Below, piece after piece: positions 9,285-60,814 of a DNA stretch of 64,000 nt. The stretch lies in contig MEOG01000097.1 in assembly GCA_001769125.1 (NCBI GenBank), forward strand, positions 1-64,000, written 5' to 3'. Position numbers and translations under genes: made by a program. The stretch is from Bacteroidetes bacterium GWF2_35_48 (lineage in GTDB: Bacteria; Bacteroidota; Bacteroidia; Bacteroidales; GWF2-35-48). The notes under the pieces were generated by a model. The model did not search any database and was not told the origin of the DNA. It was given only the letters and a program-made list of their open reading frames with translations. The stretch's first letter is position 1. Each line of letters opens with the position of its first letter.

Positions 9285-10148
9285 TTAGGCTTTATTCATC
9301 AAAATATCTACAATAACAGCAATTCCAAACAACACGCTGGCAATTCCATTTGTTGTAAAAAAAGCAATATTCAATCTGCTTATATCTTTTGGTTTTATTA
9401 TTACATGCTGATAAAATAATAAGGCAACAAACAGCGCAGTTCCAATCCAGTAGAACAATCCGAATTCTCCGATATAACCGGAAATAAACAACAGCGCAAC
9501 AACGATCAAATGTAAAAGGGAAGAAAGATATAGCGATAATTTTCGTCCTATTAAAACAGGAATTGATTTTAAATTTTCTTTTCTGTCGAAATCCTCATCC
9601 TGCAAGGCATAGAGGATATCAAAACCACTAACCCAGAAAAGAACAATCAAAGAAAATATTACAGGAATTAAATGAAATTCGGCAGTTACAGAAATGTATG
9701 CGCCAATTGGAGCAAGAGCAAGACCCAAGCCTAATATAAAATGGCAAAGAGCAGTGAATTGTTTTGTATAGCTATAGCCTAAAATAACAATCAACGCCAC
9801 CGGAGATAATATAAAAGTAAGATAATTTATAAAATATGCAGAAAGGCAAAACAATACAGAATTAATAATAATAAAAGTAATGACAGCCCGCTCGCTTATT
9901 AATCCCGCTGGGACTTCACGCATACTTGTTCTTTTATTTTTTTTATCAATACTCCTGTCAAGATAACGATTAAATCCCATAGCAGCATTGCGGGCAAAAA
10001 TCATACACAACACTACAAATAAAAATAATTTCCAGTCTATTGTATAGCCACTGCTCTTTACGCCCATAAAAAAACCAATCATTGCAAAAGGCATTGCAAA
10101 AAGTGTGTGACTAAATTTAATGAAAGAAAAATATTTCAGGATGCTCAT
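9285..10148 (-). CDS. ubiA: UbiA-family polyprenyltransferase
   Basis: 287 residues with about eight hydrophobic helices: an inner-membrane enzyme that joins a polyprenyl diphosphate to an aromatic acid in quinone synthesis. The two Asp-rich metal and diphosphate sites are visible as NRYLDRSIDKKNKRT near residue 60 and ALQDEDFDRKENLKS near residue 180. The pattern is that of the 4-hydroxybenzoate-type subgroup. In Bacteroidota such proteins often serve menaquinone synthesis by the futalosine route (MqnP), so the substrate is uncertain. It starts 11 bp after the stop of the SpoU methylase gene, so the two are probably co-transcribed. Confidence 0.85.
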   Translation of the reverse strand: MSILKYFSFIKFSHTLFAMPFAMIGFFMGVKSSGYTIDWKLFLFVVLCMIFARNAAMGFNRYLDRSIDKKNKRTSMREVPAGLISERAVITFIIINSVLFCLSAYFINYLTFILSPVALIVILGYSYTKQFTALCHFILGLGLALAPIGAYISVTAEFHLIPVIFSLIVLFWVSGFDILYALQDEDFDRKENLKSIPVLIGRKLSLYLSSLLHLIVVALLFISGYIGEFGLFYWIGTALFVALLFYQHVIIKPKDISRLNIAFFTTNGIASVLFGIAVIVDILMNKA

Positions 10149-10159
10149 TTATACAGTAT

Positions 10160-10942
10160 TTATTTATTGCCCTGCCTCAAACATCTACGTTTAAATTCGC
10201 TACAAAATATGGCTGCAGCAACCGATACATTTAACGATTCGGAAGTTCTTTGATTAACTGAAAAAGATGGTATAAAAATTTTATTTGAAATAAATGGAAA
10301 TACAGAATCGGATACTCCCTTACCCTCATTTCCGAGTATTAAAATCCCCTTTTCGCTTAATTCATGCGTATAAACAGATGCTCCATCCAAAAATGTTCCA
10401 TAAACAGGAAAATCATTGGGAATTTCAGATAAAAATTCAGGCAAATTTCTATAGATTACATTCACTCTGAAAACAGCACCCATACTTGCTTGCACAACTT
10501 TAGGATTATAAACATCTACAGAATCAGGAGAACAGATAATATTTTTTATTCCAAACCAATCAGCGGTTCGCAGAATTGTGCCTATATTTCCAGGATTCTG
10601 AATGCAATCCAATGCAATAATTAATTCACTTGAATAATCAATATTTAAACTCTTATTATTTGGAATTTTCACCAAAGCAAAAACATCAGAAACCGACTGA
10701 AGTAAAGATATTCGCTCAATTTCAGCCCGATTAGCTTCAATAAGCTCGTTAATATTTTTGTTTGTGATATTAATATTTCCAGAAATCCAGGCAGGAGTTG
10801 CAACCAGCAAAAGAACATCAAAGCCGGATGAAAGCAATTCAGTACACATCTTATTGCCTTCCACTATAAAAACGCCCTCATTATCCCTAACCTTTTTTTG
10901 ATGAAAAGATTTTATGTGAGAAATTTTATTTTTACTAAGCAT
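10160..10942 (-). CDS. SpoU/TrmH-family RNA 2'-O-ribose methyltransferase
   Basis: 260 residues. SAM-dependent methylation of a ribose 2'-OH in rRNA or tRNA by a trefoil-knot (SPOUT) domain. The N-terminal third has the substrate-binding substructure (HQKKVRDNEGVFIVEG). The three SpoU motifs follow: NPGNIGTILRTADWFG near residue 130, ILGNEGKGVS near 205, and IPSFSVNQRTSESLNVSVA near 225. Family is certain; the target nucleotide cannot be told from sequence. First gene of a likely pair with the UbiA gene. Confidence 0.9.
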   Translation of the reverse strand: MLSKNKISHIKSFHQKKVRDNEGVFIVEGNKMCTELLSSGFDVLLLVATPAWISGNINITNKNINELIEANRAEIERISLLQSVSDVFALVKIPNNKSLNIDYSSELIIALDCIQNPGNIGTILRTADWFGIKNIICSPDSVDVYNPKVVQASMGAVFRVNVIYRNLPEFLSEIPNDFPVYGTFLDGASVYTHELSEKGILILGNEGKGVSDSVFPFISNKIFIPSFSVNQRTSESLNVSVAAAIFCSEFKRRCLRQGNK

Positions 10943-16480: not shown

Positions 16481-16583
16481 AATATATCTAAATAAAACAG
16501 GCAAATTTACAAACATTTTACTGAAATTAATTATTTTTTTGCTTTTTTTGCAGAGAATGAATGTGGAGAGATAATAAAAGGCT

Positions 16584-16677
16584 GGTCGGAAGTTGAAAGT
16601 TGGAAGTTCGAAGTTCGAAGTAGGAAGTCGGAGCAAAGCCGCTTCTGACTTCGAGCTTCGAGCTTCGGACTTCCGGA
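16584..16677. repeat. GAAGTTCGAAGT foldback repeat
   Basis: The left arm is made of GGAAGTT/CGAAGTT units and the right arm of GACTTCGAGCTTCG units that pair with it imperfectly around a GGAGCAAAGCCGC centre. It fills the divergent gap between wza and folP. Its arms differ in sequence from the other intergenic palindromes. Confidence 0.6.
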
Positions 16678-16713
16678 TGGAAAAAACATTTTGCATACCA
16701 ATTTAATAATGAG

Positions 16714-17553
16714 ATGAAAAATTGCCCCAAATCTATAAATTGCAAAGGAAAGCTTCTTGAACTGGAGACACCTGTTGTTATAGGCATTATTAATATTACA
16801 CCCGATTCATTTTATAGAGGAAGCAGACTGCAACAAATTGAAGCCATTGAGAAAAAAATAAAGCTGCATATTGAAGAGGGCGCATCAATAATTGATATTG
16901 GCGCATTTTCTTCCCGACCCGGAGCTGAAATACCTGATGAAAAAACCGAATGGGTGCGTCTTCTACCTGCTCTTAATTTAATAACTGAAAAATTTCAAGA
17001 GATTATTTTTTCTTTGGATACTTTTCGTTCTTCCATTGCAGAAAAAGCTGTTTCTGATTTTAATATTTCAATAATAAACGATATTTCAGCAGGCAATCTT
17101 GATCCTAAAATGGTTGAGACTGTAGCGAAGCTGGCAGTTCCATATATCGCGATGCACATGCAGGGAACTCCGGATATAATGCAAGTAAATCCCAGTTACA
17201 AAAATATCTCGAATGAAATTATTCACTTTTTTTCTGATAAAATTTCAATTATGAAAGATGCAGGAATAAAGGATATCATTATAGATCCGGGATTCGGATT
17301 TGGGAAAACAATTGAACACAATTTTGAATTATTGCATAATTTGAATCTTTTGAAAATTCTTAATTGCCCGATTTTAGTCGGAATATCCAGAAAAGCGACT
17401 ATATATAAAACACTTGGAATAACACCAGAGGAAAGCCTTAATGGCACAACTGTTTTAAACACGTTAGCTCTTTCAAAAGGTGCATCAATATTACGAGTTC
17501 ACGATGTAAAACCTGCTGTGGAAGCCATAAAATTATTAACAACGGTATTATGA
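16714..17553 (+). CDS. folP: Dihydropteroate synthase
   Basis: 279 residues, normal length. Condenses p-aminobenzoate with hydroxymethyl-dihydropterin diphosphate in folate synthesis (cytoplasm). The TIM-barrel motifs are all present: GIINITPDSFYRGSR near residue 24, DIGAFSSRPGAE near 66, INDISAG near 111, MHMQGTP near 144, DPGFGFGKT near 192, VGISRKATIY near 225 and the closing RVHDV. The gene is alone in its direction after the wza divergence. Confidence 0.95.
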   Translation: MKNCPKSINCKGKLLELETPVVIGIINITPDSFYRGSRLQQIEAIEKKIKLHIEEGASIIDIGAFSSRPGAEIPDEKTEWVRLLPALNLITEKFQEIIFSLDTFRSSIAEKAVSDFNISIINDISAGNLDPKMVETVAKLAVPYIAMHMQGTPDIMQVNPSYKNISNEIIHFFSDKISIMKDAGIKDIIIDPGFGFGKTIEHNFELLHNLNLLKILNCPILVGISRKATIYKTLGITPEESLNGTTVLNTLALSKGASILRVHDVKPAVEAIKLLTTVL

Positions 17554-18636: not shown

Positions 18637-18710
18637 GGCGAGGTAGCTCAGCTGGTTAGAGCGCATGATTCATAATCATGAGGTCGGCGGTTCAAGCCCG
18701 CCTCTCGCTA
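18637..18710 (+). tRNA. tRNA-Met (anticodon CAT)
   Basis: 74 nt, CCA not encoded. Acceptor GGCGAGG pairs with TCTCGCT with G-U pairs at both ends. The D-arm is GCTC/GAGC, the anticodon stem CATGA/TCATG with loop TTCATAA, and the T-arm GGCGG-TTCAAGC-CCGCC. The first pair is not the C1/A72 mismatch of bacterial initiators and there are no three G-C pairs under the anticodon, so it is an elongator Met tRNA (or, less likely, a lysidine-modified Ile tRNA). The 3' part from 18669 on is the element-supplied copy. Confidence 0.95.
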
Positions 18711-18711
18711 C
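18669..18711. repeat. attL: 43-bp direct repeat inside tRNA-Met
   Basis: Identical to 28505-28547 over 43 bp; the match ends exactly where the flanking bases differ (A/T on the left, G/A on the right). It keeps the tRNA intact after insertion. Confidence 0.9.
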
Positions 18712-18722
18712 GTTTGAAAAAT

Positions 18723-18757
18723 AAAGCCCCACAAAGGAAACTCTGAGGGGCTTTGTC
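18723..18757 (+). terminator. Element-borne tRNA terminator
   Basis: AAAGCCCC (18723-18730) pairs with GGGGCTTT (18747-18754). It takes the place of the original chromosomal tRNA terminator, which now sits beyond attR at 28559-28593. Confidence 0.65.
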
Positions 18758-18808
18758 ATTTCTGGACACTGCTCAAAATACCCTGTTTTTAGTAAAAAAC
18801 ACCATCAA

Positions 18809-18829
18809 ACTTGCAAATAACTTGCAAAT
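18809..18829. promoter_or_regulatory. Putative integrase arm sites (left)
   Basis: Two copies of ACTTGCAAAT (18809-18818 and 18820-18829) are spaced 11 bp apart, one helical turn, about 100 bp inside attL. Matching sites are at 28425-28444 near attR. Binding by the integrase is inferred. Confidence 0.5.
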
Positions 18830-18864
18830 TTTCTCACCTGTAAAAGCCATAAATCCAATGTGAT

Positions 18865-20097
18865 ATGGCAATTTTAAAGTTGATTCTTGACACAAGAAGA
18901 ATGAAGAGTGACAGCACTTATCCTATTGTCTTTAGTATTTCAGTAAATGGTGACACGCGCTACATCCCTACAAAACATGCTGTACTGGAAAAAGACTGGA
19001 ATTCCAAAACTGATTGTCTTAAAAAAATACATCCTGCATATGATGTATTAACAGACAGATTAAATGAGTTGAGGGTAAAATATTTGAGCAGGATCATTGA
19101 TTATGAAAAGCACCATTCAGAGCATGTATCTGTAAATGAATTGAAGGATTATTTAGTTGCTGTCCCAAAACTAAAAGTAATTGTCTCTGAGTTCTGGAGC
19201 ACAGAAGTCAAGTACCTGTATAAAGCAGGAAGGACAGGCAGTGCAGTAATTTATGAGAACACTCTTATAGCACTGAAAAAGGTTGGCAACTTAGACATCC
19301 CCTTTAATCAGGTTACACATAAACTGCTTAGAGATATGGAAGCCTCAATGATTAGTAATGGTATTAAAACTAATAGCATTGCAATATATTATAGGACATT
19401 CAGAGCCATCTACAACAAGGCAATTATTGCAAAAGAGGTTAGCTATGACTTGTACCCGTTCCGCACATTTAAGATCAAGAAAGCAGTAACACGCCCAAGG
19501 GTTCTGACAGCAGAAGAGTTGCAGAAGTACTTCATAACCGTAGTAGAAAAATCATCATGGCTGTATGAAAGCTGGCTCATGGGCAAATTAATGTTCATGC
19601 TGATAGGTATTAACTTTAAAGACCTTGTACTGCTGTCTGAGCAACAAATACAGCATGGCAGAGTAATTTTCAACAGGTCAAAGACTGGCAGACAATATTC
19701 AATACAATTGTTGCCAGAGGCTCAGGAGATATTAGAGTACTTCAAAGGTAGAGCTGAGAGAACTTTGTTAGGAAAAATCCGTGACAAAAACCTTGATGAC
19801 AAAAATCAATTGTACCCACTGATAAAGCAAGCAAACAAAGTCTTTAATAAACATATTGGGATTATTGGTAAGGAGCTTGGTATTATGGAAAAGCTGACAG
19901 GGTATTGTTTCCGTTACACATGGGCAAACTTAGCAAAGCAACAAGGTTTCAGCAAAGACCTGATTTCAGAAGCTCTGGGACATAGTTACGGGTTAAGAGT
20001 AACTGGTATCTATCTTGAATCTTTTGACCTTGCTCATATTGATGCAATGAATAAAACCGTGTGTGAGACAGTAATGAATAAGGCACAGGAACAATAA
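18865..20097 (+). CDS. Tyrosine recombinase (integrase) of the tRNA element
   Basis: 410 residues, usual for Bacteroidota tyrosine integrases. An arm-binding-like N-terminus (1-90), a SAM-like core-binding domain (about 105-200), and a catalytic domain (about 215-395). Catalytic residues seen: beta-hairpin Lys 273 (RSKTGR), Arg II 350 (CFRYTWAN), His/Trp-position His 373 (ALGH) and the nucleophile Tyr 383 (TGIYLESFD). The place where Arg I is expected reads FMLIGINFKDL, with Ile 247 instead of Arg. IntDOT of CTnDOT is known to work without the canonical Arg I, so the protein may still be active. It sits 154 bp from attL, reading inward, and has its own terminator. Confidence 0.92.
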   Translation: MAILKLILDTRRMKSDSTYPIVFSISVNGDTRYIPTKHAVLEKDWNSKTDCLKKIHPAYDVLTDRLNELRVKYLSRIIDYEKHHSEHVSVNELKDYLVAVPKLKVIVSEFWSTEVKYLYKAGRTGSAVIYENTLIALKKVGNLDIPFNQVTHKLLRDMEASMISNGIKTNSIAIYYRTFRAIYNKAIIAKEVSYDLYPFRTFKIKKAVTRPRVLTAEELQKYFITVVEKSSWLYESWLMGKLMFMLIGINFKDLVLLSEQQIQHGRVIFNRSKTGRQYSIQLLPEAQEILEYFKGRAERTLLGKIRDKNLDDKNQLYPLIKQANKVFNKHIGIIGKELGIMEKLTGYCFRYTWANLAKQQGFSKDLISEALGHSYGLRVTGIYLESFDLAHIDAMNKTVCETVMNKAQEQ

Positions 20098-20137
20098 TCC
20101 TGTGTCTTATTTTTATAAACATATCAAGTTTACTTGT

Positions 20138-20145
20138 ATCAACCC
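20138..20145. repeat. ATCAACCC dispersed motif
   Basis: One of four copies of ATCAACCC noticed in gene-free parts of the element (20138, 20306, 25078, 28289); the copies at 20306 and 28289 share the longer ATCAACCCTTTATT. Meaning unknown. Confidence 0.3.
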
Positions 20146-20271
20146 CAGATGGTGTTTACGGTTAGTAAATAAAAAGGAAGTTATGCTGTATTTTTTCAGA
20201 CAGTATTTTGAGACGGTTTCTTCCATGACAAAAAACCACTGAAAAAACTGTCAGACTAAAAGCACTGAAAT

Positions 20272-20303
20272 GATGAGGCCTTAACGGGCTTCATCTTTTT
20301 TTT
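20272..20303 (+). terminator. Intrinsic terminator after the integrase gene
   Basis: GATGAGGCC (20272-20280) pairs with GGCTTCATC (20287-20295), 8 of 9 positions, followed by eight T. Confidence 0.75.
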
Positions 20304-20353
20304 AAATCAACCCTTTATTAAACCTGTAATGTTTAACCTTAAATCTTAAAATT

Positions 20354-21226
20354 ATGATGGAATTTAGCAAGGCGGAAAGAAACCGCTGTAAAATTAAGCT
20401 TGCGTTGCAGGGGGCAAGTGGAAGTGGAAAAACATATTCCGCTTTACTTATTGCTTTTGGTCTTACAGGAGATTGGAGTAAAATTGCTGTACTTGATTCT
20501 GAGAATGGTTCAGCTCATTTGTATTCACATCTTGGAGGTTATTATGTGCTGAATATGGCATCTCCATTCTCTCCTGAAAAATATGTTGAGGCAATTAAAA
20601 CAGGAGTGGAAAAAGGCTTCCAGTGTTTGATTATTGATAGTCTGAGTGCTGAATGGAATGGTAGTGGTGGAATTCTTGATGTCCACAGCAATATACCTGG
20701 TAATAGCTTCACTGCTTGGGCTAAGGTAACACCACGCCACAATGCATTTATACAGTCTATACTGCAAAGTGATATTCATGTGATTGCCACAATGAGAAGT
20801 AAAACAGAGTATCTTATGCAGGAAAAGAATGGCAAACAAGTGCCTGAGAAAGTAGGACTGAAAGCAGTACAACGTGAAGACACAGAATATGAATTTACTG
20901 TAGTCATGGAGTTGAACCAACGGCATCAGGCAACTATTAGCAAAGACAGGACAGGTCTGTTTGTGAACCGCCCTGAATTGATTTTGTCAGCAGAAATTGG
21001 CAAAGAGATTGCTTCTTGGTGTAGCTCTGTTTCTGTAACAAGTTCTTGCAGTAGAGAAATACCGCCGCCAAAGGAGCAGACATTTGAGGACTTGATTAAT
21101 GCGTGTGAGACAGTTGATGCACTGGCAGTGCTCTATAATGATTATCCGGAACAACAGGCAATGCACCGTGATGTATTTGTCCGCAGGAAAAACCAGATCA
21201 GTTCCATGATATTAAATCTTGTCTGA
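20354..21226 (+). CDS. Sak4-like RecA-fold ATPase (AAA_24)
   Basis: 290 residues. RecA-like core with Walker A GASGSGKT (20-27), a VLDSENGSA strand near 47, Walker B CLIIDSLS (91-98) and a sensor-like VIATMRSKTEY segment near 138. This is the pattern of phage nucleotide-binding proteins related to Sak4 single-strand annealing or recombination proteins (PF13479). The C-terminal 60 residues look like a separate helical tail. It is the first gene of a run with the DUF3871 gene, whose ATG begins one base past its stop. Likely role: recombination or replication of the element's DNA. The family is clear; the precise activity is inferred. Confidence 0.85.
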   Translation: MMEFSKAERNRCKIKLALQGASGSGKTYSALLIAFGLTGDWSKIAVLDSENGSAHLYSHLGGYYVLNMASPFSPEKYVEAIKTGVEKGFQCLIIDSLSAEWNGSGGILDVHSNIPGNSFTAWAKVTPRHNAFIQSILQSDIHVIATMRSKTEYLMQEKNGKQVPEKVGLKAVQREDTEYEFTVVMELNQRHQATISKDRTGLFVNRPELILSAEIGKEIASWCSSVSVTSSCSREIPPPKEQTFEDLINACETVDALAVLYNDYPEQQAMHRDVFVRRKNQISSMILNLV

Positions 21227-21227
21227 T

Positions 21228-22223
21228 ATGGAGTTTTTACTTAGCAACAAGGCAGTGTTGAAGAAGCTTCCAGCATTGTCACCAAACGGTATTGAAATCT
21301 CATCCAGTGCTAAACCATTTATTGAAGCAAACACGAAGCAGGTATTCATTGATGAACTTCAAAGCCACATCATACCAGTATGGACAGCCACTAATGAGCC
21401 ACTGATAAGCCATTCAGAATTTATTGAAACAATCTGGGAGGTCACACATGAATTATTCCGGGGAGAGAAAATCTTAAAACCTAACATCCGCTGTAGTCAC
21501 CCCGTCAAGGGAAGAATACCAGAAGCAAAGAATAAACCTGCTTGTGAGTTACAACCATGGGAAGAAACACTTTTTTATGAACGCATGATGTTTGTAGTTG
21601 AAATTCCAACCATATCAGAGAAAGTGAATTGTGACACACTAAACCTTATGCTTGGTGGTGTAAAATCTTACAACATTGATAACATCTATGCTAAGCGTAC
21701 ACAATGTGAGCAAAACTTTAAGCTGTTTATTGGGTTTCAGAATAAAATCTGTTGTAACTTGTGTGTCTGGTCAGACGGTTTTAAAGAAGAAATCAGCATC
21801 AAAAGTATATCACAACTTTATTATGCTGCACAGAATTTGTTCAGCAGTTTTAATGCTAAGAATTACCTTGACCCAATAAAAGACATGGGGAATATAGAGG
21901 TTACAGAGACTGATTTTGCGAAAATTATTGGAAGGAGTAGGATGTACAAATACATGCCAGAAAAATACAAAAAAGAAATCCCTCCTTTGCTGTTTGGTGA
22001 CCAACAGATGGGTGCTGTAGTCAACAGTTATTACAATGATGAAAACTTTGGCTTGCCTTATGGTGGCAGTATGGCTCTGTATAAATTATACAACCTCCTC
22101 ACAGGAGCAAATAAATCAAGCTACATAGATGCATTTCTTGAAAGGGGGATTAATGCTTTTGATTTTTCAATGGGAGTACTTGACCACAAGCAAAACCGGA
22201 AACAGTTCTGGTATTTGGGTTAG
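21228..22223 (+). CDS. DUF3871 family protein
   Basis: 331 residues from the ATG at 21228, one base after the stop of the ATPase gene; a TTG at 21219 would also fit but overlaps that gene. I recognise the DUF3871 pattern from memory: HIIPVW...NEPLISHSEFIE near residue 45, IRCSHPVKGRIPEAKNKPA near 90, FYERMMFVVEIPTI near 115, LGGVKSYNIDN and FKLFIGFQNKICCNLCVW. The family is restricted to Bacteroidota and is usual on their mobile elements; its function is not known. Translational coupling to a Sak4-like ATPase suggests a job in the same DNA-processing step. Confidence 0.82.
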   Translation: MEFLLSNKAVLKKLPALSPNGIEISSSAKPFIEANTKQVFIDELQSHIIPVWTATNEPLISHSEFIETIWEVTHELFRGEKILKPNIRCSHPVKGRIPEAKNKPACELQPWEETLFYERMMFVVEIPTISEKVNCDTLNLMLGGVKSYNIDNIYAKRTQCEQNFKLFIGFQNKICCNLCVWSDGFKEEISIKSISQLYYAAQNLFSSFNAKNYLDPIKDMGNIEVTETDFAKIIGRSRMYKYMPEKYKKEIPPLLFGDQQMGAVVNSYYNDENFGLPYGGSMALYKLYNLLTGANKSSYIDAFLERGINAFDFSMGVLDHKQNRKQFWYLG

Positions 22224-22229
22224 ACAGGA

Positions 22230-22258
22230 GAGTCCGGCAACGGGCTCTTTTGTTTTTT
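22230..22258 (+). terminator. Terminator after the DUF3871 gene
   Basis: GAGTCCG (22230-22236), a GCAA tetraloop, CGGGCTC (22241-22247) with one G-T pair, then a T-rich run. Confidence 0.75.
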
Positions 22259-22316
22259 GTCGTGAATTAAACAGGATTTTTTATCTTGGCAGCATCAATT
22301 ACAAAAAAAGTAGAAG

Positions 22317-24365
22317 ATGGAGCCAGTCTTAATAAAAAATAAAAAACTGTATATCGGGGAAAAGGTTATTAAGGGTATAACCACACATATGATTAAGGAT
22401 AACTCAAAGTTGGGAGATGTTTTTAATTATCTGCCATGTGGGATAATTGATAAAACTGAAACAGGGATTGGGGGAACAAGTCTTGAATTGGATTGTAAAA
22501 GAAATTCAATTATTGTTCAGCCCTATGCCAATATAGCCTGGTTAAAAGCAAAAATGAAATCTGTCTCAAATGGATTTACTGTCTTCTTTTATGGGATTAA
22601 AAAAAATGCCCAGAAAAAAAGAAAAGGTCAAATCCGTACAATTGGCATTGAATTATCCCTTGAACAAAGAAACCTGAACCTACAGGAGTATGTTGATAGT
22701 TGTATTATTAATAAGCAATATATTAAAATCACTTGTGTAACTGACCAATTAAAAAACATTAAAGAATACCTTAACTGTAAACAAGAAGGGTACTTTGAAA
22801 CATTTCACCTCTTACTTGATGAAATAGACTCATTACAAGAACAGAGTACTTTTAGGCCTGTAATGGATGAATGTTACAGTATATATAAGGAGCATCCACA
22901 AAACAAAAAAACAGTTATATCAGCAACATTAATCAAGTTCCATGATCCAGACCTTGTACAAGATTCTCGTACAAGGTTTAAATACCAAAACAAGGTTATA
23001 AGGAACATCTCTGTTATTAAGGCTTCAAACACAGAACAGGAATGCTTATTACGTATAAAAAAACAGAAAATATTAGATGTAGATCATAAAATTGTTGTAG
23101 CATACAACAGCATAAATTCCTGTAAAAGAATTACAGAATACCTTGTTCAGAGTAAGACATGCAAAGCTTCTGAGGTAAAAATAATATGTAGCACTGCAAG
23201 TGAGGATAAAGCAGGAAAGTTTTATGATTTTATTGATGAAGATGGAGTGTTGCCGGGCAAGATAAACTTTATTACAGCAGCTTACTTTAATGGGGTTGAC
23301 ATAAATGAGCAATACCATAGTTTTATAATAGCTGATTCCACAATTAAGACACTTGTTTTATCACCGTCTGTTATTTACCAAATAAGTGGCAGGGGTAGAT
23401 TTGGACTGTTGTCAAATGTACTAATTGTTAAAGCAACTTCTGTTCCTCACCAGAATTTTACATTGGAGGATTTTAGCATTTTTGAACAAGAAAAAAGGGG
23501 TTTTGAAACATTTCTTGAAAACTTGTCCTCATCAGCTTCAAAGTATGGTAAGAGTTTAGCAATAGAGTTGCGTAATGTGTTTATTGATGGAACTGAGAAC
23601 TTATCTGGGGTACTTAAGGGGAAGGGGAATAAAATAGAACTCTCCTACATAAAAGTTGACAGCATTCTTGAAAGACAAAAAACACTTGACATGTACAGTA
23701 ATTACAAGACTTTCATGCTTAATTTGGCTGAAAAATTCTCAGTTCAACAGGAGGCTCCGTTTTATCAAAACAAAACTCAAAAGCAAAACCTTAAAGGTGA
23801 TGTGATACTTCGCTGTAAAGAGTTACTGCAAAAGCTAAAAAATGTGATTAACACAAGTGATGTGAAAAAACAGATACAGAAAATTGAAGCCGGTCTTGAA
23901 GCCCCATCTTATCCATCAGATTATGTTCTTTGCAGAATTTATGAACTTGCATTTATGCATGAAAATGTTGACATGAATAAGCTTAGCACAGTTATAGAAG
24001 GCTTGATAAAATCTGAAAAAACAATCAAGTCTTTAAAATTTATTAGAAATCACCTTGCGTTTATGCTGTATGCATATCCAGAACAAGCTGTAAAAGATTT
24101 ATTTGAGACCAGCTTTATTATGGGTCATAAATATACTGTTGATGAGTTTAACAAATCAAGTAAAAGCTTTGCCCGTTCTCTTAAAGCACAAGCCAAGACA
24201 TTGAACCCTGAAGTTAAAAAGATTGCAGATGAAATTTATAAAAAACCCAGTCTGATCAAAGATGCTTTGCTTAATGCACAACCAACCCGGCTCACAGGAA
24301 CAAGATTTTGTACAATAAAAAGTCACCTTAAATTTGATATTTATTGTGCAGACTATTCACTGTAA
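22317..24365 (+). CDS. SF2 helicase-like protein with degenerate P-loop
   Basis: 682 residues. Superfamily-2 helicase signs in order: P-loop position KTETGIGGTS (46-55), motif Ia-like NSIIVQP (63-69), Walker B LLLDEID (165-171), motif III SAT (202-204), second RecA domain with KIVVAYNS and FITAAYFNGVDI, and motif VI QISGRGRFG (355-363). The P-loop reads GIGGTS, so the usual Gly-Lys-Thr lysine is a glycine. I recall other Bacteroidota mobile-element proteins with TGIGGT at this place, so it may be a family trait rather than decay. The C-terminal 310 residues are mostly helical with no motif I know. Probably acts in replication of the element. Confidence 0.7.
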   Translation: MEPVLIKNKKLYIGEKVIKGITTHMIKDNSKLGDVFNYLPCGIIDKTETGIGGTSLELDCKRNSIIVQPYANIAWLKAKMKSVSNGFTVFFYGIKKNAQKKRKGQIRTIGIELSLEQRNLNLQEYVDSCIINKQYIKITCVTDQLKNIKEYLNCKQEGYFETFHLLLDEIDSLQEQSTFRPVMDECYSIYKEHPQNKKTVISATLIKFHDPDLVQDSRTRFKYQNKVIRNISVIKASNTEQECLLRIKKQKILDVDHKIVVAYNSINSCKRITEYLVQSKTCKASEVKIICSTASEDKAGKFYDFIDEDGVLPGKINFITAAYFNGVDINEQYHSFIIADSTIKTLVLSPSVIYQISGRGRFGLLSNVLIVKATSVPHQNFTLEDFSIFEQEKRGFETFLENLSSSASKYGKSLAIELRNVFIDGTENLSGVLKGKGNKIELSYIKVDSILERQKTLDMYSNYKTFMLNLAEKFSVQQEAPFYQNKTQKQNLKGDVILRCKELLQKLKNVINTSDVKKQIQKIEAGLEAPSYPSDYVLCRIYELAFMHENVDMNKLSTVIEGLIKSEKTIKSLKFIRNHLAFMLYAYPEQAVKDLFETSFIMGHKYTVDEFNKSSKSFARSLKAQAKTLNPEVKKIADEIYKKPSLIKDALLNAQPTRLTGTRFCTIKSHLKFDIYCADYSL

Positions 24366-24414
24366 ATCTTCATTGAAATAGTTTGGGACTTGTGTATTAA
24401 TGAGGCATTCATAT

Positions 24415-24464
24415 ATGACAAATTTATTAATTATATTTATAACACATTAACATTAATTTGTCAT
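24415..24464. promoter_or_regulatory. Inverted repeat ATGACAAATT/AATTTGTCAT
   Basis: Perfect 10-bp arms at 24415-24424 and 24455-24464 in an AT-rich gap. Could be an operator pair or part of an origin. Confidence 0.45.
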
Positions 24465-24537
24465 ACAGTATAATGCAGTGATTTATTAACAATTTAGGGG
24501 CAGTTAGCCATATAATGCAAAATATGTTATTAACCTG

Positions 24538-24566
24538 ACATTTTGCTATTGAGACTGACAAAATGT
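24538..24566. promoter_or_regulatory. Inverted repeat ACATTTTG/CAAAATGT
   Basis: Perfect 8-bp arms (24538-24545, 24559-24566) lie just ahead of a TATTTTTG -7-like box at 24572-24579, in front of the small basic protein gene. Position suits an operator. Confidence 0.45.
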
Positions 24567-24619
24567 TTTATTATTTTTGAACTTGTGTAGCTGTCTGGTA
24601 AAAGGATGCAGAGAACTGT

Positions 24620-24961
24620 ATGCTTCAAAAAAATACACCCATAATGAGAACAACAAAAATGTCTGGAAAAAGAATGATCACTGAAAAATGGGTTTCAGCA
24701 AATGAAGCAGGTTTGACAGTGAGTAAGACTATAAAACAATGGATACAGGATTCTCCTGATATTGTTCTTAATTCAATATGGCTTGGGAAGCTTGAAATCA
24801 CAAAGGATGCACATACATTACTGATGAGAGAAATTGAAACACGTTTTGCTGAAATGTACAGCATACACAATAAGAGGAAAGCGTTTCACGGAAAAAACAA
24901 AACAGCACAGAAAAGACTTCATTTATATAAAAGTCCAAGTGTAGCAGTCCTGTTACAATAA
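24620..24961 (+). CDS. Small basic protein of unknown function
   Basis: 113 residues with many Lys and Arg; three possible Met starts within the first 18 residues (24620, 24644, 24659). The middle (WVSANEAGLTVSKTIKQWIQDSP) could form a helix-turn-helix, and the tail (HNKRKAFHGKNKTAQKRLHL) is strongly basic. No family recognised. Being small, basic and placed behind two operator-like inverted repeats, it is a candidate regulator or excisionase of the element, but nothing in the sequence proves that. Confidence 0.5.
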   Translation: MLQKNTPIMRTTKMSGKRMITEKWVSANEAGLTVSKTIKQWIQDSPDIVLNSIWLGKLEITKDAHTLLMREIETRFAEMYSIHNKRKAFHGKNKTAQKRLHLYKSPSVAVLLQ

Positions 24962-25469
24962 CTTCATTTCAGCACCTGCTAAAAGTATTAGTTATACAGA
25001 ACTTGAAAATCGGGGTAGAAAAGCACCACCACAAAAACACGCTGACAAGTTCCTTTCACATGTAACTGTTTATTTAAATCAACCCTGACAGACTTTTTGG
25101 TGAACATCAAATTACAGTATATGGCTAATCGCTTTTCTGAGGAAGGTTTTACACTGCCCGGCTAAAAAGTTAAGTGCCACCTCTTAATTTGATCTGAGGT
25201 GAGGTTTTTACTATTCTGGTTGGCAGGGTTTCTTCTACCACGATTGTTGAGAACTGTATAATTTTCCTGTTAACAGTATTCCGTGTTACCAGGATGAATT
25301 TACATATTGCAATATGCCCTTATGGGTTGCATCAAGGTATTATTAAAAAAGAGCAGGTACTACTGGTATTTCAGTAAAACATGTTGTATATTTGTATTTG
25401 TAAAATTAACTCTATTAACATGACATAGCATATTAACACATAATAATTTAGCGTTTAGCAGAATTCCGG
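24962..25469. other. Gene-free stretch of the element
   Basis: About 510 bp without a plausible gene. It holds the inverted repeat CACCTC/GAGGTG (25178-25183, 25196-25201) followed by a T-run, one ATCAACCC copy (25078), a TTCTTCTACCACG 13-mer near 25228 that recurs near 28231, and a TATATTTG box at 25387-25394 that may start the cargo transcript. Confidence 0.5.
25387..25394 (+). promoter_or_regulatory. Putative -7 element of the cargo operon
   Basis: TATATTTG fits TAnnTTTG; no good -33 element. If used, the mRNA would have a leader of about 235 nt containing the nested hairpin at 25470-25579. Confidence 0.4.
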
Positions 25470-25579
25470 TATTGAAACCGTCCAAATTTCTTTATTGCCA
25501 CAGGATATTAAGCAAAACGCCACGTCAAGGCGTGGTTGTTGCTTTACTTGTGGTAAGGGTTCTTGGACGGACCTCAATA
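25470..25579. promoter_or_regulatory. 110-bp nested hairpin ahead of the cargo operon
   Basis: Five stacked stems share one axis: TATTGA/TCAATA (25470-25475, 25574-25579), CCGTCCAA/TTGGACGG (25478-25485, 25563-25570), CCACA/TGTGG (25498-25502, 25549-25553), TTAAGCAA/TTGCTTTA (25508-25515, 25539-25546, one mismatch) and CCACG/CGTGG (25520-25524, 25531-25535). It ends 57 bp before the cargo start codon. It could be a structured leader RNA or a folded single-strand DNA site. Confidence 0.6.
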
Positions 25580-25636
25580 GCAGTGGGCAATTTACCACGC
25601 TGTTTTTTTATAGTGTTTAATAAAAGTACAACTAAA

Positions 25637-26920
25637 ATGAGAAAAATTATTCTGATGACCACAATTGTGGTTTACATGTCAGTCCTACAAGCACAAAACT
25701 GGACACAATTAGCGTATTTCCTTACAGGGACAATGGAAATACCAACTATAAATTCCATGGTTGAATATAACGGGGATTTATATATTGGTGGTCATTTTGC
25801 CTCTGGTGGAGGAATTGTTGCATCCAATATAGCAAGATGGAATGGGACAAGTTGGTCTGCATTAAATAGTGGATGTGATGGAAAAGTAAATGCATTAGCA
25901 GTTTATAATGGAGAACTTTATGTCGGCGGTGATTTTGGTATTACTGGTGGAATCTCATCTCCTTATATGGCAAAATGGAATGGAAGCACTTGGAGTGAAG
26001 TTTCATTTTATAACCATAAAGTTAAATCACTAATTGTAAACAACAATGACTTGATAGTTGCAACGTCAGATAGCTATACTGCTTATAATATGTATGAATG
26101 GGATGGTTCAAACTGGACTCATTTTGGAGGCACTTATAAAGTTAGGGCAGACCAGTTGTGTGTACATGATAATGAACTTTACGTAGCAGGAGTATTCAAT
26201 GATACGTCACTAACAAATAATGATTTTTATGGTATAGCCAAATGGGATGGCTCAGGATGGATAGATATTACAGGTGTAACTGGAGGTACATCTAATAACT
26301 ATATGACTGCTTCATTGGTTTCTTATAATGGCTGCTTATATCTTTCAGGAAATTACATATATTCCTTGGGAGGAATAACAATAGACAACATTGCAAAATG
26401 GGATGGTGTATCATGGTCAAATGTTCCATTAGGTTCTTCTTCAACATCAATGTCATGCTTATTCTCACATTCTACTGGTTTATATTTTAGTTGTGTAGAA
26501 AATGAGGGTTATAGGAAGGTTGTCAAATGGAATGGGACAAGCTGGACTCCTATTTCTCAGGGTGGAATTAGTCTGGATGTCTGGATTTTTTTGTATTATA
26601 ACTCAAAACTTTTTACAGTAAATGGGAGCTCAAGTGGTCACAGTACAGTTAATTTTATTACGCCAAGTTCTTCTGATGTTGAAAGTAATGAATTATTAAA
26701 CTTTGTAGAGATTTATCCTAACCCCAGCAATGATTTAATAAACATTGGAGCAACATCAAATATTGATGAAATAAAAGTCTATAATGAACTTGGGCAGCTT
26801 TTATATTCATCAACCCCCAAAATTAAAAAAGTGTCAATTAAACTGGAGGGCAAAGGAGTATTCATTATTAAAATAACTTGTGGAAAACAGACCGGGATTA
26901 AGAAAATTGTGCTGGATTAG
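25637..26920 (+). CDS. T9SS-exported kelch/propeller-like surface protein
   Basis: 427 residues from the ATG at 25637, which opens a signal peptide (MRKIILMTTIVVYMSVLQAQ); the longer frame to 25472 reads through the nested hairpin. Residues 25-345 are repeats of about 45 residues with the pattern NGDLYIGGHF...IARWNGTSWSAL, a beta-propeller-type unit. Residues 355-427 are a type A T9SS sorting domain (VEIYPNPSNDLINI ... VYNELGQLLY ... GVFIIKITCGKQTGIKKIVLD split over the last 70 residues), so the protein should be exported by the host's T9SS and fixed to the cell surface. First gene of a pair. Cargo of the element; ligand unknown. Confidence 0.82.
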   Translation: MRKIILMTTIVVYMSVLQAQNWTQLAYFLTGTMEIPTINSMVEYNGDLYIGGHFASGGGIVASNIARWNGTSWSALNSGCDGKVNALAVYNGELYVGGDFGITGGISSPYMAKWNGSTWSEVSFYNHKVKSLIVNNNDLIVATSDSYTAYNMYEWDGSNWTHFGGTYKVRADQLCVHDNELYVAGVFNDTSLTNNDFYGIAKWDGSGWIDITGVTGGTSNNYMTASLVSYNGCLYLSGNYIYSLGGITIDNIAKWDGVSWSNVPLGSSSTSMSCLFSHSTGLYFSCVENEGYRKVVKWNGTSWTPISQGGISLDVWIFLYYNSKLFTVNGSSSGHSTVNFITPSSSDVESNELLNFVEIYPNPSNDLINIGATSNIDEIKVYNELGQLLYSSTPKIKKVSIKLEGKGVFIIKITCGKQTGIKKIVLD

Positions 26921-26953
26921 CATTTCAGACAAGAATAAGCAAATAAACCTTGT

Positions 26954-28072
26954 ATGGTTATGAAAAGTTCAATAGTGTATGCTGCCTTAATTTCAGTACT
27001 GGTTTTAATAAGCTGTAGTTGCAACAACAGCCCGACACCGGGTAATCTAAGCATGAATTCAGCAGATTCATCACAAATAAAACAGCAGAAAATTAAACAA
27101 GGCAATCAATTGCCTGACAAGAATAATAAAGCACTCAAAGCCTCAGCTAATGATCATGTGAATGTAGTTGATAGCACCGCTCCTATACTGGTGCTTTCAT
27201 CAAACCCAGCTACGGTAGTTAATGGAGTTCAAAAATATTACTTGTGGACAACAAGGAATAAATTCACATGTAATGGTTTTTGGAGTGCATCAGAAAAGCT
27301 TGTTGTTGATATAACAGGCCTTTCATCCATTAAATTGAAGTATATTACCTCTATTTCCATTAAATTAATTGACCCATTATCCCTAAATCATTTGCCAGAA
27401 CAGTCTCCTGCTAAAACAGGGCTAAACAAAATTGAGAAACAACTTGTAGGGTCATGGCAATTTAATGGTTATTGTTATAATGGTTGGAATTGGCTTGCAG
27501 AAGTATGTTTTAATAAATGGAATAATCAGCAGTCCCGCACTCATGAAATTGACAATGGCACATTATTTCAAGTCAGCGTAAGTCCAGATACATTAAAATT
27601 TATATTACAAGGCTCTGATGAGTCTCCAAGAATATATAAAAGGATAAAGGAAAACTCAGTGAAGCCTGAAAAAAAGGTGTCACAGGAAGTTACACACTTC
27701 ATGGATTCTTTAATTAAAAATGGTATAGATCCCGGTGTTGAAAGAGCAAGAGCCCTAAGAGATCGTATGGAGAATCCGGAGTCTTTTGCAGTTGACAAAA
27801 ACTATTATGGTAAGGCTTGGTCATATGATGCAACTGTATATGAGGAATTCACAAAAAGTCCATGTTATGGCAAAATTGGGTTCAGCCCGTGGCAGAAATA
27901 TGAGGACTTAAAAAAAGAGTATGCTGAGTGTGAAAAAGCATATTACAAAAACCTTGTCATAAAGATTATTGTTGTTACTGTTTTACTGGTGTTCTTAGGG
28001 CTAATGTTGTACTTCACAATAAGGAAGCACAGGAAGAAGAAAGGCATTGACAGTGGAGGTATTAACAAGTAG
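26954..28072 (+). CDS. Lipoprotein with C-terminal membrane helix, unknown function
   Basis: 372 residues. Lipoprotein signal with lipobox LISC near residue 22 (MVMKSSIVYAALISVLVLIS then CSCNN). The central part has a Trp-rich stretch (GSWQFNGYCYNGWNWLAEV near 168) and a helical region; near the C-terminus a strong hydrophobic segment (IIVVTVLLVFLGLMLYF, about 338-354) is followed by a basic RKHRKKKG end. A lipid anchor plus a C-terminal transmembrane helix in one protein is unusual. It lies 34 bp after the propeller gene, so both are probably made together. No family recognised. Confidence 0.7.
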   Translation: MVMKSSIVYAALISVLVLISCSCNNSPTPGNLSMNSADSSQIKQQKIKQGNQLPDKNNKALKASANDHVNVVDSTAPILVLSSNPATVVNGVQKYYLWTTRNKFTCNGFWSASEKLVVDITGLSSIKLKYITSISIKLIDPLSLNHLPEQSPAKTGLNKIEKQLVGSWQFNGYCYNGWNWLAEVCFNKWNNQQSRTHEIDNGTLFQVSVSPDTLKFILQGSDESPRIYKRIKENSVKPEKKVSQEVTHFMDSLIKNGIDPGVERARALRDRMENPESFAVDKNYYGKAWSYDATVYEEFTKSPCYGKIGFSPWQKYEDLKKEYAECEKAYYKNLVIKIIVVTVLLVFLGLMLYFTIRKHRKKKGIDSGGINK

Positions 28073-28504
28073 ATGCTGTACAGTAATACCAATTATGAAG
28101 TAGTGCATTGCACCCCCTGTCTTCATAAGCCCGGGCTTGATAACAAAACCGGCTTACCCCCCTTGTTTTATTTGGCAGACAAAACCTATTACAGCATAAC
28201 AAGAAAAGTTTTGTGGTACAGCTGCAACATATTCTTCTACCACGGTTTTACAAGCAGGTTGTTGAGGTATTGTACAATGTCATTTATACATCAACCCTTT
28301 ATTCATTTTAAGTATATAATAAGTCCATCTCAGGCATATTGGGGCAAGGCATATAAGTCTGAGATATTTTTACCAGTCCTTGCAGAAAAGTAAAATTAAT
28401 ATTAATCCGGTTTTTACAGGATGCATTGCAAAATACTTGCAAATCTGAGAAGAGTTTTTCTGAGAGATGGCAAGATCAGGAGGTTACAGAGGCAAGTCAC
28501 GTTT
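28073..28504. other. Gene-free right end of the element
   Basis: A 106-codon open frame that starts directly at the previous stop looks non-coding. The stretch contains a 12-bp palindrome AAGCCCGGGCTT (28127-28138), GTGGTA/TACCAC arms (about 28214 and 28238), an ATCAACCC copy (28289) and the right arm sites. Confidence 0.5.
28425..28444. promoter_or_regulatory. Putative integrase arm sites (right)
   Basis: ATTGCAAAAT (28425-28434) and ACTTGCAAAT (28435-28444) lie 10 bp apart, about 60 bp inside attR, and mirror the left pair. Confidence 0.5.
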
Positions 28505-28547
28505 TTCATAATCATGAGGTCGGCGGTTCAAGCCCGCCTCTCGCTAC
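28505..28547. repeat. attR: orphan 3' half of tRNA-Met
   Basis: 43 bp identical to 18669-18711. There is no tRNA 5' half in front of it, so it is the displaced chromosomal tRNA end. Confidence 0.9.
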
Positions 28548-28558: not shown

Positions 28559-28593
28559 AAAGCCTTTCAGCGTTTTTTGTTGAAAGGCTTTTT
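28559..28593 (+). terminator. Original chromosomal tRNA terminator
   Basis: AAAGCCTTTCA (28559-28569) pairs perfectly with TGAAAGGCTTT (28581-28591), followed by T. It starts 12 bp after attR, just as the element's own hairpin starts 12 bp after attL. Confidence 0.75.
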
Positions 28594-28679
28594 AATTATT
28601 TGCACCAAGAATTGCATTATAAGATTTTTTGAAACTTTTTTGATTTTTAAAAATAAAAATAAAACGTTTACTTATTAAA

Positions 28680-54516: not shown

Positions 54517-55899
54517 ATGTTTGCAATCATTGATATTGAAACTTCTGGAGGCAGGGGACTTGATAAAATTACAGAAATCGCTGTTATCATTCATGATGGA
54601 ACAAAAATAATTGACGAGTTTTCTACACTTCTCAATCCCGAAAGGAACATACCTTATTTTATTACGAATCTTACCGGTATTACTAATGAAATGGTGGAAA
54701 ATGCTCCTAAATTTTTTCAAATCGCAAAAAAAATTGTAGAGCTGACGCACGATAAAATTATTGTTGCGCATAATGCAGGTTTTGATTATACCTTTATTAA
54801 AAATGAATTTAAAAGTCTGGGTTATGATTTTAAAAGAGAGAAAATTTGTACTGTCAAGTTGGCCAGAAAGCTTATTCCCGGTTTAAAATCTTATAGTCTT
54901 GGTGAAATTTGCCGCGATCTTGATATTAATATTACAAACAGACACCGTGCACTGGGTGATGCTCTTGCTACTGCTAAACTTTTCGAGTACCTGCTTTCTG
55001 TAAATGATAATAAACTGAATCTTTTTACCGACGAAAAATTACAATCGCTGCAAGATATTAATCCTGTCTTAGATCGTGATAAAATTAAAGTCTTGCCGGA
55101 AGAAACCGGTATTTACTATTTTTATAATGATGTAAAGGAATTAATTTATGTAGGGAAAAGTAAAAATATTTACAGTCGGGTTATCTCTCATTTTAATAAT
55201 ACAAGAGTTAAAAAAGGGCTGCTTATGCGCGCTTTGATTGCAGATATTGATTTTGAATTAACCGGCAGCGAATTGGTTGCTTTTTTAAAAGAATCTGATA
55301 TTATTAAATCTGAAAAACCGCTCTACAACCGCACGCAACGATGTACTATTTTTCAATTCGGAATTTTTTCTTTTTTTGATAAGAACGGCTACCATTGCCT
55401 GCAGATTGAAAAATTAACGAATCAGAAAAATCCGGTTCTTGTTTTCGACACGCTTGCTTCTGCGCGAAAGAGCCTGTCTGATTTAGTAAATAAGCATACT
55501 TTGTGTATGAAACTTTGTGGCTTGTATGAAACAAAAGGAGCTTGTTTTAATTATTCGGTTCGTCTTTGTAATGGCGCTTGTATAGGGTTTGAATCTCCCG
55601 GAATTTATAATAAAAGAGTTGATGAAATGCTTTCAGGCTTTCGTTTTCATGAACAGAATTTTTTTATTATAGATACGGGTCGAAGTAAAAATGAACGTTC
55701 TGTAATTAAAATAGAAAACAACGCATACAAGGGCTTTGGCTATATTGATATCTCTGAAAATATTTCGTTAGAAAGCCTGCATGAAAGCATCAATTCATTT
55801 CCCGATAACCACGATATACAGCAAATCATAAGGGCTTATCTGAAAAAAAATAAGGTTGAAAAAATCATTCCTTTTGAGAACAATATTATGGGAATATAA
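54517..55899 (+). CDS. DnaQ-like exonuclease fused to GIY-YIG nuclease
   Basis: 460 residues. Residues 1-165 are a DEDDh 3'-5' exonuclease (IDIETSGG near 5, HNAGFDYTFI near 85, HRALGDALAT near 144 with the His and last Asp). Residues 195-275 are a GIY-YIG domain (GIYYFYNDVKELIYVGKSKNI, catalytic Arg in YSRV, and a conserved Glu). Such UvrC/Cho-like fusions to polymerase III epsilon-like domains occur in several phyla and are thought to act in DNA repair. The C-terminal 180 residues have Cys residues at 330-360 and no domain I recognise. Near uvrA on the map but not in one operon. Confidence 0.85.
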   Translation: MFAIIDIETSGGRGLDKITEIAVIIHDGTKIIDEFSTLLNPERNIPYFITNLTGITNEMVENAPKFFQIAKKIVELTHDKIIVAHNAGFDYTFIKNEFKSLGYDFKREKICTVKLARKLIPGLKSYSLGEICRDLDINITNRHRALGDALATAKLFEYLLSVNDNKLNLFTDEKLQSLQDINPVLDRDKIKVLPEETGIYYFYNDVKELIYVGKSKNIYSRVISHFNNTRVKKGLLMRALIADIDFELTGSELVAFLKESDIIKSEKPLYNRTQRCTIFQFGIFSFFDKNGYHCLQIEKLTNQKNPVLVFDTLASARKSLSDLVNKHTLCMKLCGLYETKGACFNYSVRLCNGACIGFESPGIYNKRVDEMLSGFRFHEQNFFIIDTGRSKNERSVIKIENNAYKGFGYIDISENISLESLHESINSFPDNHDIQQIIRAYLKKNKVEKIIPFENNIMGI

Positions 55900-56043
55900 A
55901 CCATAAAAAATCACATCCCATGTTCGCTTCGTGAACTACAATGGCTGCAAAAATAAATTTGATGTTAAAAAATACATTAGTTCAATTAAGAATTAAGGTT
56001 ATTAGCCCAAAATAGTGGAATTTGTTAAATGGATAGATTGAAA

Positions 56044-56133
56044 ATTGTTTCAAGTTTCAAGTTTAAGGTTTCAAGTTAAAGGTTTAAGGTTGACCTGCAA
56101 CCTGCAACCTGCAACCTGCAACCTGCAACCTGT
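56044..56133. repeat. CAAGTTT/AAGGTT and CCTGCAA tandem repeat
   Basis: A left block of TTTCAAGTTTAAGG-like units faces five tandem CCTGCAA units. It belongs to the GTTGCAG family. It occupies the 55900-56206 gap, in which I see no gene. Confidence 0.6.
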
Positions 56134-56206
56134 ATCAAAATATAGCATCCACTAAAAAGTCGAATAATCAGAATTAAACTCCTCACGTTAAAGTTTTGTT
56201 AAAATG

Positions 56207-56237
56207 TTGCCCTCTACAAATCCATAATGTATCTTTG
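56207..56237 (+). promoter_or_regulatory. Promoter of the HYC_CC_PP gene
   Basis: TTG at 56207-56209, a 20-bp spacer, TATCTTTG at 56230-56237. It overlaps the first ATG (56227) of the following open frame, so that ATG cannot be the start if the promoter is real. Confidence 0.65.
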
Positions 56238-56241
56238 TTTT

Positions 56242-56676
56242 GTGAAAATTAAGACAAGAAATATTATTACTTTTTTTTTCGCTTTTATTTTTACGTTAAG
56301 CAGCGTAGGTTTTAATTTTTACATCCATCAATGTAGTTACCCCGGACATATTTCCTCTTTTTTATCCAAATCAGATATTGACTGTGAAAGTCAATGTACA
56401 AGCCATTCCTGTTGTCATCACAATCATGACGAAAAAGCCGAGGGATCTGTTTCTTTTCATTGTTGTTCCGATTATCATAAATACATTTCTCTTGCAGATT
56501 TTTTTATTCCTTCAAAAGCAGTTTTTTTATCTTGTATCTCTACTAATATTTTTTTCTTTTATTCTTTTGATTCTTTTGTTAAACCTGAATTTGTAAAAAA
56601 AGCATTTGAATATTATTCTCCACCTCCTAAAATAAACATTTCTTTAAATATATTCTTTTCTCAATTTCGAAATTGA
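56242..56676 (+). CDS. Cys/His-rich HYC_CC_PP family protein
   Basis: 144 residues from a GTG at 56242, chosen because the ATG at 56227 lies inside the promoter and the frame has no other Met. The product starts with a basic stretch and a hydrophobic helix (IITFFFAFIFTLSSVGF). It has an IHQC motif, a Cys/His-dense segment (CTSHSCCHHNHDEK), HCCSDYHKY and a late YYSPPPK, the order that gives the HYC_CC_PP family its name. Such proteins precede TonB receptors of metal type in Bacteroidota. Spacing to the receptor gene is 49 bp. Likely binds a metal ion in the envelope. Confidence 0.72.
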   Translation: MKIKTRNIITFFFAFIFTLSSVGFNFYIHQCSYPGHISSFLSKSDIDCESQCTSHSCCHHNHDEKAEGSVSFHCCSDYHKYISLADFFIPSKAVFLSCISTNIFFFYSFDSFVKPEFVKKAFEYYSPPPKINISLNIFFSQFRN

Positions 56677-56725
56677 TTTTTACTGTAATTCCAGATTTTT
56701 TTTTTACAGTTTAAATCATTTTATC

Positions 56726-59029: not shown

Positions 59030-59192
59030 AGAATGAAGACTCGTTGCTTACTTTATACTACCGTTATGGTTAAGAGCCAAAGACTCGACTCTACAAGGAT
59101 TCCATGCTAAAATTTAATCAATAATAAATTAAAAAAATATGGTATTTATATCTAAATATCTAACAAAAAAGAAAAATTAACTTAACACTTAT

Positions 59193-59225
59193 AAAAAAAC
59201 CGCTCTTTTCGGAGCGGTTTTTTTT
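59193..59225. terminator. Bidirectional terminator, TonB receptor/thiolase
   Basis: AAAAAAACCGCTC pairs with GAGCGGTTTTTTT around a short TTTTCG loop, between the convergent genes. Confidence 0.88.
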
Positions 59226-59242
59226 ACAAATATCAATTTGTT

Positions 59243-60487: not shown

Positions 60488-60576
60488 ATTTTTTTGATTT
60501 TTAAATTTCTATTTTATTTTTTGCCACGAAAGCACGAACCAAAATAATTCATGAATTTTTTTTTAATGATTTGATC

Positions 60577-60650: not shown

Positions 60651-60814
60651 AAAAAAATTAAGTCTTCTGATTCCTGTTTTGCATCAACAATTTTCTTTGC
60701 TATATCTTCCAATTCAAGAGATAAATGCTCTAATTTATTTTTGTGAGCTTTCGTATTCCTGTCTGTCGAAGCGACAGCACAGGCAGGTTCGTGATTTAGT
60801 GGCATATCTTTACC

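Follow-up and report, generated by a model that had tools for sequence, protein, structure and literature searches.

A tRNA-Met-integrated island in a Bacteroidetes genome, apparently one member of a recurrent AAA_24–DUF3871 island class

Contig MEOG01000097.1 of Bacteroidetes bacterium GWF2_35_48 (GCA_001769125.1) contains a genetic element inserted at a tRNA gene, which is apparently one member of a recurrent, undescribed island class of the Bacteroidota. The stretch of DNA analysed, referred to here as the window, spans 64,000 nt; all coordinates are window positions and all features of the element are given on the + strand. An intact tRNA-Met (CAT) gene, recognised by ARAGORN and Rfam, occupies 18637–18711, and its last 43 bp (18669–18711) form the left attachment core. 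An exact duplicate of this tRNA 3′ half at 28505–28547 forms the right core, 9,836 bp away from start to start, as an earlier first-pass annotation of the sequence had proposed. These are the only two sites in the whole 5.98-Mb assembly that match the tRNA 3′ half, and similarity between them reaches 60 bp at 95%, into terminator sequence. Chance does not account for an exact 43-bp match to the 3′ end of a tRNA.

Insertion has left the tRNA gene restored. Right after it, the element supplies a hairpin of its own (AAAGCCCCACAAAG / CTCTGAGGGGCTTT, 18723–18754) that is probably a replacement terminator, so that the tRNA gene would retain both its sequence and a terminator. The displaced host terminator (AAAGCCTTTCA...TTGAAAGGCTTTTT, 28559–28595) lies beyond the right core. 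Two tandem copies of ACTTGCAAAT at the left end (18809–18829) and a third copy 60 bp inside the right core (28435–28444) are candidate arm-binding sites for the integrase. No other exact copies occur in the window, all three (18809, 18820, 28435) are on one strand, and none of 100 shuffled sequences reached this number, which makes a role as arm-type integrase sites plausible. An equivalent search in relatives found 25-bp tandem motifs common to both ends in two elements (0/200 shuffles each) and a signal that was weak or absent in most others, and we therefore offer the arm sites as a suggestion.

Seven convincing genes, that of an integrase and six others, lie between the repeats in one orientation. 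The tyrosine integrase (410 amino acids [aa]; 18865–20097), with Arm-DNA-bind_5, Phage_int_SAM_5, and Phage_integrase domains, sits just inside the left end and is followed by an AAA_24 ATPase (290 aa, 20354–21226), a DUF3871 protein (331 aa from its ATG, 21228–22223) and a divergent superfamily 2 (SF2) helicase (682 aa, 22317–24365). An AT-rich non-coding stretch with the inverted repeat TATGACAAATTTAT/ATTAATTTGTCATA (24366–24619), a candidate origin or operator, separates these from a 113-aa open reading frame (ORF) of no confident family (24620–24961) and from two cargo genes encoding surface proteins: a secreted repeat protein with a type IX secretion system (T9SS) tail (Por_Secre_tail, 25637–26920), and a protein with a lipobox-like signal (LISC) and a C-terminal transmembrane helix (26954–28072). 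All seven genes had been called before, including the integrase at one end, the recombination and helicase-like genes and the surface cargo; we corrected two starts. That of the DUF3871 gene probably belongs downstream at the ATG at 21228, and that of the T9SS protein would likewise move downstream to the ATG at 25637, placing the predicted signal peptide MRKIILMTTIVVYMSVLQAQ at its N-terminus. An eighth ORF (28073–28393), for which no relative exists, is unlikely to be a gene. The earlier impression that packaging and conjugation genes are lacking was borne out, as no capsid, relaxase, terminase, or type IV secretion system (T4SS) domain was recognised in the eight ORFs. PADLOC returned no defence model for the element except one marginal match on DUF3871, and the whole element had no nucleotide-level match among phage records.

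The catalytic residues K273, R350, H373, and Y383 of the integrase, the R(II)-K-H-Y set, are intact and invariant across the 20 relatives compared, in which the first arginine is not conserved. A non-conserved first arginine is known from IntDOT-type enzymes. The AAA_24 protein matches phrog_1366 and, weakly, a Sak4-like family; its Walker A motif is complete (G23, G25, K26, and T27 conserved). Homologues occur in 409 phage records, where they are annotated as RecA-like recombination proteins, and the homologue in phi105 is located between the Gam and the single-stranded DNA-binding protein–primase genes. Judged by these sequence relationships, it is a phage RecA-like (Sak4-type) recombination protein.

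The DUF3871 protein matches PF12987 with an E value of 4.5e-106, and the Pfam scan returned this family only, leaving the DUF932 family PF06067 unmatched. An AlphaFold2 model built from 24 relatives (predicted local distance difference test [pLDDT] 83, predicted template modelling score 0.80) was compared by Foldseek with viral models in BFVD and found DUF932-type proteins, several of them named as such, with probability 1.0 and E values from 9e-9 to 4e-4; no match was found in the PDB by fold or by sequence. In HHalign, the comparison with 21 DUF932 proteins of the Bacteroidota reached 94% probability (E 1.1e-7), with the VCxN and LWxxYNxxT motifs aligned between the two profiles. DUF3871 and DUF932 (phage/plasmid-like protein) thus have a fold and two motifs in common, but are separate Pfam families with no sequence match between them. 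We read DUF3871 as a divergent DUF932-like protein and a putative partner of the Sak4-like ATPase.

The 682-aa protein has only a marginal DEAD match in the family scan and keeps the SF2 motifs GxGxT, DExD, SAT, and QxxGRxR. Its model is weak (pLDDT 63) and shows similarity to RecQ/BLM and herpesvirus UL9 helicases; the protein is therefore taken as SF2 only, with neither subfamily name adopted. A homologue is encoded by Acinetobacter phage Phab24 (L048:4911-6776; 26% identity, E 1e-8), which hints that SF2 proteins of this kind form a wider family among phages.

An empty counterpart of the insertion site was found in a genome of the same genus (G396, contig 37) using the two flanks of the element, joined, as the query. 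There, the tRNA is directly followed by the terminator that stands to the right of the second repeat in the window, the joined flanks score 246 versus 199 for the left-end and 155 for the right-end sequence, and the site lacks an integrase. The match spans the tRNA and about 50–100 bp downstream, beyond which the flanks differ. The locus is an empty attB. The gene rpsO, considered as an anchor for the empty site, was dropped as the tRNA does not adjoin it in relatives.

An even sampling of the phylum gave 396 Bacteroidota genomes, which were then surveyed, along with 14 control genomes, for DUF3871 (PF12987); it occurred in 17 of the former and none of the latter. The regions around the matches were searched for tRNA and transfer-messenger RNA (tmRNA) genes and for repeats of their 3′ ends. 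Fourteen of the 17 loci are flanked by such a gene on one side and a copy of its 3′ end on the other, or 14 of 15 when the two loci at which the contig ends are left out of the count; the locus in G072 has no tRNA nearby. The exact repeats measure 15–87 bp and the islands 9.8–28.5 kb. The weakest repeats, 17 bp in G143 and 15 bp in G061, both coincide with the 3′ end of the RNA, and by a rough hand estimate from local base composition, a 15-bp match would arise by chance in 40 kb with a probability near 0.01. The first-pass annotation had proposed looking for relatives at tRNA-Met, but this is not the constant site: the targets include Met, Asn, Arg, and Ser tRNAs and tmRNA, and Ala in a further locus (L004).

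This recurrence bears on the possibility that the element is an immobile prophage remnant, stripped of its structural genes but still in possession of the integrase and the early recombination genes. Genes of the AAA_24 and DUF932-like kinds are typical early phage genes, and a true tailed-phage contig (L075, with tape measure, holin, and endolysin genes) carries DUF3871, as a fragment only (9995–10273). The same reduced content, matching ends, and diverse cargo nevertheless appear in 14 bounded loci across the phylum, a recurrence that the decay of independent prophages would not give; the ORFs are, moreover, intact, and the site is empty in a genome of the same genus. We consider a remnant quite improbable. 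A GIY-YIG homing endonuclease comes after the DUF3871 fragment in L075.

In 15/16 loci, the AAA_24 and DUF3871 genes adjoin each other in one orientation and overlap or almost do. The constancy of this pair is exceeded only by that of the integrase, whose cluster is present in 22 of 28 loci compared (partial contigs included). Frequent further companions are RadC-type JAB proteins and a small helix-turn-helix (HTH)-like protein, and the cargo varies. The helicase accompanies DUF3871 in a minority of loci (L005, L009, L042, L028, L064, L066, and L070), where it lies upstream of the pair, whereas in the window it lies downstream. The gene order integrase–ATPase–DUF3871–helicase put forward earlier is therefore not general: only the ATPase–DUF3871 pair is conserved, the helicase being optional and usually upstream. 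With a constant integrase and recombination pair and a variable remainder, the class is best described as a fixed core with exchangeable replication and cargo genes. A 10.0-kb tRNA-Lys island with a 55-bp repeat in Bacteroides finegoldii (L047:11911-21979) encodes the integrase, the divergent SF2 helicase, RadC, and a resolvase and is without DUF3871, making it a sister type. IMG/VR contigs with DUF3871 mostly share this organisation and may be islands that were taken for viruses; on one of them (IMGVR_UViG_2847593706_000001), two DUF3871 islands of similar layout (L065 and L068) lie about 18 kb apart, suggesting tandem islands.

The Pfam scan covered about 140 non-redundant proteins of 15 bounded relatives, with five proteins that cross the borders of the stretches lying outside it, and 65 of the 140 or so, from the two largest groups, were scanned with PHROGs as well. 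Two of the five Pfam lists comprised the best 25 families, with 2 and 4 further families that were all weaker. The cargo of the relatives is mostly of the restriction and anti-phage kind. The families matched include MmeI, Mrr, type I and type III restriction, BREX BrxC, Shedu, HamA, and Schlafen families, as well as TIR, ABC-3C, dynamin, Vsr, and several DNA methylases, and some relatives carry primase/helicase modules; the PHROGs matches were to primases, helicases, a Gam protein, methylases, and nucleases. Defence cargo is present in the relatives; the cargo of the window element consists of surface proteins. Among the Pfam matches listed for the approximately 140 proteins, there was no capsid, portal, terminase, tail, relaxase, coupling protein, or T4SS family, and PHROGs found no structural family among the 65. 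Capsid or relaxase genes in relatives within the same boundaries had been named in the first-pass annotation as the observation that would count against its view of the element as “a satellite or mobilizable island” of a class it could not name. With none found in 15 bounded relatives, that remains a fair description, now of a recurrent class; the word “satellite,” in the sense of packaging by a helper phage, is unproven.

Richness in cargo would also be expected of an ordinary chromosomal island that spreads only by generalised transduction or natural transformation, with AAA–DUF3871 itself as defence or anti-restriction cargo. Islands do move by these routes. The pair, however, stays constant while the cargo changes, as expected of a core, and the integrase and the attachment sites imply dedicated movement, so we regard this explanation as improbable.

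The layout is known from another phylum. The tmRNA islands I23, I44, and I55 of Pseudomonas and the “phage defense elements” of Vibrio (PMC12595487) likewise combine a tyrosine integrase at a tRNA or tmRNA 3′ end with direct repeats. The class described here also resembles the I23/I44/I55 type in lacking genes for autonomous transfer, and relatives of the window element carry defence cargo as that type does; all three Pseudomonas islands were captured from cell-free filtrate, and I55, which was transduced by a jumbo phage, moves as its satellite (PMC12595487). Unlike these islands, the DUF3871 class belongs to the Bacteroidota and has a core of AAA_24–DUF3871 (plus RadC/HTH in relatives), its repeats mostly exceed the 14 bp of I55, no AlpA was recognised in it, and the window cargo consists of surface proteins, not defence. 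Phage satellites such as phage-inducible chromosomal islands (PICI), P4-like elements, and phage-inducible chromosomal minimalist islands (PICMI) are alike in size, integrase, replication/recombination genes, and lack of structural genes, but the packaging or capsid-redirecting genes of PICI, capsid-forming PICI (cfPICI), P4, and PICMI (terS, sid-like, own capsid) have no homologue in the window element. Prophages differ in possessing capsid, portal, and terminase genes, and integrative conjugative elements in having T4SS genes within their boundaries; the window element has neither.

Class members probably borrow the transfer machinery of another element. For the element in the window, we give an even chance to its being an integrative, helper-dependent mobile island that is excised by its integrase, copied by phage-type recombination, and transferred by another element, likeliest a tailed phage. 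In such a cycle, the integrase would excise a circle through the 43-bp core and the ACTTGCAAAT-type arm sites, the SF2 helicase together with the Sak4-like and DUF932-like proteins would drive recombination-dependent copying into concatemers, and the helper phage would package the copies. Carriage would be paid for by the cargo, namely the surface proteins in this element and the restriction and anti-phage systems in relatives. Phage recombination modules make concatemers suited to packaging. We infer the vehicle from the phage-type recombination core and from the islands of the same layout (I23, I44, and I55) that were captured cell-free, one of them transduced, and for these reasons consider a phage more likely than conjugation.

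Several observations weigh against this helper-dependent reading. No excised form was seen in the assembled sequences searched, the element has no recognisable packaging signal, small terminase, or capsid-modifying gene, and the search of the host genome for a helper phage came up empty, its sole phrog_2 terminase match being a RecD-like helicase. Nor do related genes in faecal virome-type records provide evidence for packaging: the “Bacteriophage sp.” records MT839478, MT839350, and MT840031, with helicase, AAA, DUF3871, and integrase genes, were rejected because the same deposit contains chromosomal scaffolds, such as MT835665.1 from human faeces, labelled “Bacteriophage sp.” and encoding a bacterial polynucleotide phosphorylase. 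These records resemble, and may derive from, a virus-like-particle data set that was reportedly treated with DNase and chloroform (PMC8361208). A circular 15.5-kb B. finegoldii “plasmid” with DUF3871 was not used as an excised form since another “plasmid” of that assembly is chromosome (hflX, rsmI, fumarate hydratase).

The host also carries conjugation genes, and these fit a different helper. A Bacteroidota-type conjugation cluster flanked by large secreted proteins lies on contig 56 of the host assembly (G000, 54963–60900, L142), with TraM over the cut-off, an ATPase that is like TraG/VirB4 and of TraG/VirB4 size, and neighbours. It could serve a relaxase-less island (an “iOriT” integrative and mobilizable element, IME) that is excised by its integrase and then mobilised by a resident conjugative element through an origin of transfer (oriT) on the island. 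Integrated elements without a relaxase are recognised as a category (PMC11389934), and the Bacteroides IMEs NBU1 and NBU2 use tRNA 3′ ends (PMC5704250). NBU-type elements are further alike in being about 10 kb long, belonging to the Bacteroidota, and using a tyrosine integrase; they differ in encoding a MobP relaxase, which is absent from the window element and its bounded relatives. The host assembly has no PF03432 relaxase, and the core genes are those of phage-type recombination, not mobilisation. The non-coding block at 24366–25640 has no second copy in the host genome, which rules out mimicry there of the oriT of a resident element. Conjugative mobilisation, the leading alternative to a phage helper, is in our view rather unlikely.

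A stronger form of the phage-helper reading is put forward tentatively, as a possibility well short of an even chance: DUF3871 islands may be Bacteroidota phage satellites undescribed in the open-licence literature searched, which would form concatemers by means of their Sak4/DUF932-like proteins, be packaged by helper phages without a packaging gene of their own, and spread much of the restriction and anti-phage repertoire of the phylum between tRNA and tmRNA sites. No known satellite family was reported for the Bacteroidota in that literature. It likewise held no description of an AAA_24–DUF3871 core or of this island class and mentioned DUF3871 in an unrelated context only. What is already known is that islands at tRNA and tmRNA genes carry an integrase and defence cargo and depend on helpers for movement; new, within the same literature, are the AAA_24–DUF3871 core and the Bacteroidota class built on it. 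The pair provides a marker for small mobile islands across the phylum and links the DUF3871 family to the phage DUF932 family and a Sak4-type recombinase. If DUF3871 islands are indeed satellites, this would explain the movement of many restriction and anti-phage systems in the Bacteroidota, which dominate gut, marine, and soil communities.

Two further repeats in the window were noted in addition. At 16527–16790, overlapping ORFs give repeats such as SSKLEVRS...TSYFELRTSNFQLPT that look like an intergenic repeat, not a protein. The sequence ATCAACCC occurs seven times in the window against 1.6 expected, none of 100 shuffles reached seven, and five of its copies lie on the + strand inside the element (20138, 20306, 25078, 26809, and 28290), mostly in intergenic positions.

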